A stretch of DNA of 64,000 nucleotides from Rhodamnia argentea (Eukaryota > Streptophyta > Magnoliopsida > Myrtales > Myrtaceae): NCBI RefSeq assembly GCF_020921035.1, contig NC_063150.1, positions 27,575,826 to 27,639,825 on the forward strand, written 5' to 3'. Below, piece after piece: positions 29,701-32,700 of the stretch. The first letter of the stretch is position 1, and every line of letters starts with the position of its first letter. The notes beneath the pieces were generated by a model that was not told where the DNA came from, did no database searches, and saw only the letters and a program-made list of their open reading frames with translations. Both the position numbers and the translations under genes were made by a program.

Positions 29701-32700
29701 ATCCATGAATGCTAAGGGACGCGTAAAAGAATTTCAGTTCAATTACAACACTACTTCGCCGGATAATGCTTCAGAAGCTACTACAAACTACCATAATTCG
29801 ATCAGAATCTTCCCAGACATTACCTCTATTATGTCCGGGAACAATTAGAGAACGGTAAGTTTATCACCCATATATGTAAACAACCAACCCTAGTCAAAAC
29901 CAGAGTGACCATTACGCTTTTTATTGCAGTATAGTCTACTGTATTATGATCAACCTCTCAGTGATCTTACTCTGCCACTAACAGTACATCAGAACCACAA
30001 GGTAAATGTATCATAATTGCTGAAGGTTCCTCCATGGAAAAGACGTGTTTAGCGTCCAACAACAAAGGTTAAAGTTGCCTATCACTTCATGAATCAACCA
30101 AAACTTGAATCCCCCACTTCTAACTCAATGCACTCAGATTTTTAACAGAGTGAAAAGAAAAAAGAAAGATCATCATGTCACAAGCATATTACCCGAGTCA
30201 AACCAAACATCCATTGTATCAGTGCCCTTCTCATAGTCCGATGCTTTATCACGATATCTTTCAGGAAGTAGATCCTCTACTTTCATATACCACCACGCAT
30301 CACTACCCCTTTGGGCTATTATGGCTGCAATCACAGTTTGTCTCATTAACCAAAGTTAAAGAAGACATAAATGCATTGGCAGAAGGAACCGTCAGTCTTG
30401 GCATAACAATTGGAAGGTGAATACAACATTAGTACGCAATCCTAATAAACAAAATCAGGCATTAACATATAAAGAAAGAGAGAGAGATCCTAATGTTAAA
30501 GAAGACATAAATGCATTGGCAGAAGGAACCGTCAGTCTTGGCATAACAATTGGAAGGTGAATACAACATTAGTACGCAATCCTAATGTTGTCACTTTCAT
30601 AGTTCCTTACTGTTAGAAAGTCCAACCCAAAAGCTTAAGCTGATAGATAGAGGGAGACCACATGAATATAAAGAATATTTAGGACCCATTGTCAAGCAAT
30701 AAGGGACATGTTTCAACACCCCCTCTCATGTGCAAGTCGGATAACGAGCGGCACGTAGAATTAATTTTGACTACGCACATTCACATGGAATTTTACCACA
30801 CACATTCGCGAAAGGGATAGCACTGGCTCTAATACCATGTTAGAAAGTCCAATCCAAAAGCTTAAGATAATAAGTGGAAAGAGACCACATGAATATAAAG
30901 AGTATTTAGGACCCGTTGTCAAGCAATATGGGGCATGTTTCAACACTTACATTTAATATGATTAATAGTCTCTTCATTCATTAGAGGTTCCATAGTTTGT
31001 TTATGGTAAAAGACTGGAATGGGTACACCCCATGTCCTTTGCCGAGAAATGCACCAATCCGAGCGGCTAGAAGTCATTGCTGAAATTCTGTTCTCAGCCT
31101 GACAGAGTACCAGTCAAAAGGCAATAAGTTAGCAGTGCACAAGTTGACCTTATTTCAAAGCGATACAAACATAAGAATAGTCATGAAGAAAGAACCCTCT
31201 AGGATCGCTACCTGAGGTGGAATCCACTTGACGTGCCCAATTGCATCCATAGCAGCCTGACGAAACCCTTCCACTGAAGCAAACCACTGTTCAGTCGCCC
31301 TAAATATAGTAGGTTTTTTTGTTCGCCAATCATATGGATATTTGTGTTCTGCACGAAAAAAAGCAATATCCGAATTAATAGTGTCCTTTGCGAAGTTTCC
31401 AAATTAGAATTAGAAATCACCATATTGTGAAGCAATGTCACTTACGATATGATTCTTCCATGAGAATGGATGACTGTCCATCCAAGTAGTTCACAACAGC
31501 AGTATTACCATCCCCAAGTACATCAAGTCCACCAAATTGTCCAGCTTCTTCAGTGAACTTCCCATCATCTCCTACGGGGGAAAGAATGGGAAGTCCATAT
31601 TTCAGGCCAGTGACATAATCTTCTTGACCATGACCCGGAGCTGTATGGACCAGTCCAGTTCCGGATTCCGTTGTGATATATTCTCCTCCAATGACAACTG
31701 GGCACTCCCTCTTATCTATGGGATGGATATAACTGCATCCACATTAAGATATACTGTGTCAACAGATTCATGAAACTATTACCAAATAAACAATGGACAC
31801 ACTTTATAGATTATGTTCCATTATCTATGATATTAATCCTTCAAACTTATAACCTAAATATGAAGCTGAAATGATTGGCACTCCCTTGGATTTCAAGACT
31901 TTAAAATACTAAGATGAACTATGTCCAATTCAAGACATCATCGTTCAACAACCTGCAGTTTTCAAGATCAGAACCCAGTAGAATTTTCTTCACGGAGAGC
32001 TTCACACCCCATTTCACTGCTAATGCTGGCACAAGATCCGATGCCACAACAAGAAAAGGCCTCTTGTCTCCGTTCAGAACCTGTCCAAGTCTGTGTCTTT
32101 TATCTTCCTTAGGTACAGGAATGTCTCCTGGAGGGGAATGCACTTCGACTATAGCATATTGAAGTTTACCATTCACAGCAACCGCTGCAAAGAACAAGAA
32201 GCATTCAGCAATGTTTACCAACCAATGCAGAAATGGTGTAAAACCCAGGGAACTATTGATGGCAGTAAAAGTTGACTTTAATTTGACATTTGTAGAATAA
32301 GAATGCCAAAACAATTTCAGAACATACTGTGGTGAAGCAAATCATCAACTTTTTATTAAACAATCACAAAGAATGACGAAGGTGATCCTGAGAGTTGAAG
32401 GTTATCACAAACCCCCTTGTCACGGTAGTGCTGTCTGAACTGGTCAAATTACTAAGACCCATATGTAGCCGAGCAATTCAATTTCCTCCCCCCACCCCAA
32501 ACCCCCTCTTCGCCCCCTTCTCTCCCACCGTGTGAAATCTAAATTGATTTACATATACCTGACATCAAATAAGTGAATTCAAGCAATCACCACATTGAAA
32601 TTAACACCAACTATGAATCTACACAACTCCAAGAAGTCCTCATCACTCCCTTTCAGCACCTTAAGATTCATTACAGAATGCACTGAGGATACCTGCATTG

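Follow-up and report, generated by a model that had tools for sequence, protein, structure and literature searches.

The closest described parallel to the locus reported here is the LTR retrotransposon Yaoer in the CHS2 gene of the fall armyworm. Its target-site duplication (TSD), GAAGG, lies over an exon/intron border, the first T of its LTR makes a GT on the near side, and the former donor is left on the far side of the element (PMC11249258). Both transcripts were found there, and the normal mRNA is 12-fold more abundant in the susceptible strain (PMC11249258).

TRIMs, which are non-autonomous miniature LTR retrotransposons, are enriched in introns and sometimes alter gene structure (Gao et al. 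2016, PMC4717578), and the same is described for SMARTs (PMC3281118). Plant LTR elements in general make 5-bp TSDs with an AT-rich centre, in which T is rare on the left (PMC6911290). Introners are elements whose splice sites can derive from the TSD (PMC9860276).

The window, a 64,000-nt stretch of the Rhodamnia argentea genome, holds a TRIM at the start of an intron in an isoleucyl-tRNA synthetase (IleRS) gene. It has in common with Yaoer that an LTR element with a 5-bp TSD sits at an exon/intron border, that the first T of the LTR is part of the exon-side donor and that a second donor lies beyond the element; the arrangement of a donor made on the exon side from TSD and LTR end, with another beyond the element, is thus found here as well. 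Yaoer is a 6.4-kb autonomous element of an insect, whereas the TRIM measures 335 bp and resides in a plant. The Yaoer TSD takes in four bases from the end of the exon and one from the intron, with the donor rebuilt from one G and the LTR; the TSD of the TRIM, unlike GAAGG, is the whole donor from +1 to +5. In size, terminal repeats, 5-bp TSD, intron location and occasional change of gene structure, the element resembles the plant TRIMs and SMART (PMC4717578, PMC3281118). A TSD lying on a splice donor is not described for these in the accessible text of the two papers, and no plant TRIM of this kind was found in the open literature searched, where the insect element was the one matching case (PMC11249258). 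By analogy with Yaoer, the event is of an already known kind, namely an LTR insertion at a donor.

The host gene and the element

The gene lies on the minus strand and encodes the cyanobacterial-type IleRS of the plant, presumably the one named OVA2 in Arabidopsis. Its spliced core protein scores 931 bits against NCBIfam ileS (cut-off 621), and solved IleRS chains match the stretch that spans the exon/exon junction. The gene model comes from spliced alignment of the DNA with a 25-member profile of cyanobacterial IleRS proteins, made without regard to the TRIM, and has 21 exons in the core. The exon upstream of the insertion (30951..31098, minus strand) ends at 30951 with ...CAT ATT AAA T, the intron extends from 30950 to 30325 in phase 1, and the following exon lies at 30193..30324 on the same strand. 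Residue spacing over this junction is the same as in the spliced plant protein in 79 of 80 bacterial loci; the remaining one failed the search expression. The number 13 given to the upstream exon in the initial annotation is plausible but inexact, since the core model counts it as the 12th and the two or so upstream exons that would make it about the 13th of the gene were judged by eye. Elsewhere in the model, a 63-bp intron (32143-32081) is doubtful and may be a plant-specific in-frame insertion in the protein (the frame is open), and a likely GC-AG intron is found at 34539-34422 (donor AAAG|GCATGT).

The first five intron bases, GTAAG (30946..30950, minus strand), are at once donor +1 to +5 and the first TSD copy, and become GTAAGT with the next base, T. 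There follows a complete element of 335 bp (30945-30611, minus strand, TGTTG...TAACA) in sense orientation to the gene. Its 5' terminal direct repeat of 108 bp (30838..30945, minus strand, TG...CA) is followed by an internal region of 119 bp (30719..30837, minus strand), which starts with the PBS-like TGGTATTAGAGCCAG and ends with the purine tract ATGAGAGGGGG, and by a 3' terminal direct repeat of 108 bp (30611..30718, minus strand) that is identical to the 5' repeat at 96 of 108 positions. The second TSD copy, a potential distal donor, stands at 30606..30610 (minus strand), with CA before it and GAACT after it, and the remaining 281 nt of the host intron (30325..30605, minus strand) lead to the acceptor ...GATTGCAG. 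The initial annotation had described just this, a complete TRIM with a 5-bp TSD equal to donor +1 to +5 and hence two donors (30950-30946 and 30610-30606). The observation is confirmed in all its coordinates, those of the exon end, both GTAAG copies and the TRIM being right by sequence, and the border also independently by spliced alignment.

The element has the properties expected of a TRIM: a length below 1 kb with TG...CA direct repeats (335 bp, 2 x 108 bp), a TSD in the range of 4-6 bp (GTAAG on both sides, 5 bp), and TGGTATTAGAGCCAG and ATGAGAGGGGG adjoining the repeats as PBS and PPT, the former 14/15 identical to an initiator-Met primer site. Coding capacity is lacking, in that no ORF of at least 120 aa in the ORF list overlaps the TRIM and the longest listed minus-strand stop-to-stop frame from within it has 61 aa. 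It also belongs to a dispersed multi-copy family, as the genome search described below showed. The repeat finder reports repeats of 109 rather than 108 nt because a G stands before both copies. No TRIM motifs were found in the viral contigs searched. A search of papers for the letters of the element matched only two coral microsatellite papers, which are irrelevant.

The two repeats are separated by 12 substitutions in 108 sites, of which 10 are transitions and 2 transversions; this corresponds to a K2P of 0.123. Substitution rates of 1.3e-8 and 7e-9 per site per year give an insertion age of 4.7 and 8.8 My, respectively. Repeat divergence in 39 other copies has a median of 0.121, with 14 of the 39 below 0.111, so that in age the window copy is typical of its family. 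Of the 12 differences that separate 30838-30945 from 30611-30718, seven lie within 15 bp, and 451 of 100,000 shuffles were equally clustered; this may mark a variable spot or gene conversion.

The host intron has a further peculiarity, a tandem duplication of two 95-nt copies (30352-30446 and 30492-30586) that are 99 % identical and 140 bp apart, each with a branch-point-like TACTAAT motif. Either a recent duplication or an assembly artefact might account for it. Rfam gave no match within 30300-31000.

Target choice within the family

The genome searched comprises 346.7 Mb in 74 contigs. With the TRIM as query, at least 41 matches were found (40 of 553 first-look candidates were scored), and further copies were added by using two other copies as queries and by an end pattern. 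In total, 72 other candidate copies were fetched, some of them partial and three (L178, L179 and L180) known solely through the end pattern. In 39 of the 72, an exact 5-bp match lies close to the ends, and 34 were accepted as TSDs under the rule of at least one canonical end or no shift, which dropped L108, L118, L171, L173 and L178; two of the 34, L111 and L188, were counted at shifted ends. The sequence at 31348-30951 matches only itself in the R. argentea genome, which thus offers no paralogous empty site.

A target matrix was made from the 34 TSDs of the other copies, leaving the window copy out. G occupies position 1 in 14 of them and T in only 1, and A is found 22 times at position 3 and 17 times at position 4. 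Under this matrix, GTAAG ranks first among the 1024 pentamers, with a bootstrap median rank of 2 and a 90th percentile of 11 (300 draws); matrices from random controls give it a median rank of 456 and rank 1 in none of 500. The leave-one-out score of the TSDs is 0.56, compared with -0.33 (sd 0.12) for random flank pentamers, and none of 2000 controls scored as high. GTAAG falls to rank 5 in a strand-symmetric matrix. It ranks first with the 20 close copies alone and 41st with the 14 more distant ones alone. The preference thus holds for the pooled set and is strongest in the close subfamily. It is also known in outline, since it agrees with the general bias of plant LTR elements (PMC6911290). 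The accessible text of that paper makes no mention of a likeness to the 5' splice site.

Splice donors are good targets by this measure. Counting the one that was hit, the gene has 19 donors, whose mean target odds are 5.5-fold in the sense direction against 0.99 overall, or about 5.0 by arithmetic when the hit donor is left out. For the modelled gene, the chance that one insertion hits a donor exactly and in sense rises from 0.12 % under uniform choice to 0.65 % under the target matrix. Sense GTAAG occurs five times in the empty-site gene, and two of these are donors. As relatives of the TRIM tend to land on donor-like sequences, the donor hit may be less accidental than it looks.

An alternative would be coincidence: an ordinary intronic insertion that happened to start at +1, target preference being irrelevant. 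At a uniform chance of 0.12 % per insertion, and with as many copies as the 553 first-look candidates suggest, one donor hit in the genome is unremarkable, and the copies examined yielded no second. However, under a matrix that leaves the window copy out, the site actually used shares the top score with 11 others among 16,508 position-orientation pairs, and GTAAG is first of all pentamers, which leaves pure coincidence an unlikely account.

The search for a second hit, whose outcome speaks against a general rule, covered several kinds of candidate. A genome pattern search found GTAAG on both sides of the window copy only; decayed copies would escape it because it requires exact ends. The string GTAAG+TGTTGAAACATG, with at most one mismatch, occurs in four places (two for the reversed control), one being the window and the other three lacking TRIM similarity. 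Thirteen of the 34 TSDs begin with GT or end with AC, and none of the 13 is an evident donor as judged by eye. L098, with the TSD GTAAA after AG, was rejected because the recognised frames nearby are on the other strand (by eye).

Some other copies stand out for their surroundings. A related copy, L184 (C8:26555330-26555651), seems by eye to be placed 13 nt before a 3' splice site: after its TSD, GTATA, come TTATAATTCGCAG and the exon-like frame AREKFVSLKRSTRG. Three related copies are clustered within about 2.9 kb at C8:6372612-6375508, and two more, in opposite orientation, are found at C8:5620284-5622584.

Two donors, one intron

Removal of the TRIM and one TSD reconstructs the empty site as AAT|GTAAGGAA. 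Today the sequence is AAT|GTAAGTGT at the exon-side donor and ACA|GTAAGGAA at the far donor. In an energy model of the U1 duplex, the values are -4.8 kcal/mol for the empty site, -7.3 for the exon-side donor and -5.0 for the far donor. A donor matrix built from 18 other donors of the IleRS gene, from which the doubtful intron 32143-32081 was excluded, gives 3.10, 4.44 and -1.18, respectively. The exon-side donor is thus ahead of the far one by 2.3 kcal/mol and 5.6 bits. It is nevertheless weak by the gene's own standard, with only 1 of the 18 other donors scoring lower, mainly because it is without the G at -1 that 17 of them have, which may give greater weight to its pairing at +5 and +6. On these models, normal splicing from the exon-side donor is likely.

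Splicing from the far donor would lengthen the mRNA by 340 nt, shifting the frame by one base and leading to C-K-C-stop after the last exon codon, and full retention of the intron would lead to the same stop. The initial annotation had foreseen that the far donor would include the whole TRIM, and had also proposed that the first bases of the element turned GTAAGG into the better GTAAGT; both claims stand, the latter as modelled U1 pairing. Its interpretation is partly supported: sequence and model bear out the donor duplication and the improvement of the exon-side donor. When the left joint of an inserted LTR element falls at +5 or beyond, the donor next to the exon stays intact up to +5, and target duplication is what LTR integration normally produces, so "rescue" of the splice site, as it was called, is a loose term.

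It is conceivable that both donors are used appreciably and that functional IleRS mRNA is lowered or regulated through a TRIM-including transcript. There are indeed two GT donors, the far one equal in strength to the modelled empty site, and Yaoer offers an analogy in that both spliced forms occur. Against this, the models put the exon-side donor well ahead, the inclusion form would run into C-K-C-stop in a presumably essential enzyme (probable OVA2), and an insertion with repeats this divergent seems to be old and tolerated; appreciable dual use is quite improbable.

Introners are like the TRIM in that the TSD can supply a splice site, and differ from it in creating new introns within exons, mostly by DNA transposition, whereas the TRIM entered an existing intron (PMC9860276). 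That the TRIM itself made the intron in this way, although the TSD could provide a splice site and the TRIM end plus TSD reads CAG, is rejected as hardly credible because a complete intron persists after removal of the TRIM and one TSD, with 281 nt of non-TRIM sequence and the acceptor beyond the second TSD.

A proposed history

The most probable explanation as a whole is that a TRIM integrated at the start of the intron, at a favoured landing site, and duplicated the donor, of which the exon-side copy is used. The TRIM would have integrated into the first intron bases of the tRNA-synthetase gene in sense orientation through a staggered cut over donor +1 to +5, and gap repair would have left GTAAG on each side, an order of events suggested by the general LTR mechanism. 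The exon-side GTAAG together with the first T of the TRIM would then form GTAAGT, predicted by the energy model to pair better with U1 than either the empty site or the far copy. Most transcripts would use this donor, the TRIM would be lost with the intron and the protein would be unchanged, whereas splicing from the far donor would be unproductive. The family favours targets such as GTAAG and GTAAC, which are the core of the 5' splice site, so the place of landing was probably no neutral draw. Against the explanation, the exon-side donor is still weak by the matrix, and the insect precedent had strongly reduced normal mRNA.

A broader proposal can be put forward only tentatively. The family's preferred pentamer, GTAAG/GTAAC, overlaps the 5' splice-site core, and the TG...CA ends that every LTR element must carry would rebuild a stronger near donor (GTAAG+T) and a weaker far donor (CA+GTAAG), so that landing on a donor might be both favoured and survivable. 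What deserves a genome-wide test is the overlap between the preferred target and the donor motif. The proposal predicts something that can be counted: donors should hold more elements with this target preference than expected from intron sequence, most of them in the sense direction and with an improved donor on the exon side, and annotated plant genomes allow this excess to be tested directly. The locus itself offers a clear example, from a plant, of an LTR-type insertion in which the TSD is a complete splice-donor core. If the proposal is true, it would give LTR elements a general way into introns at the very first base.
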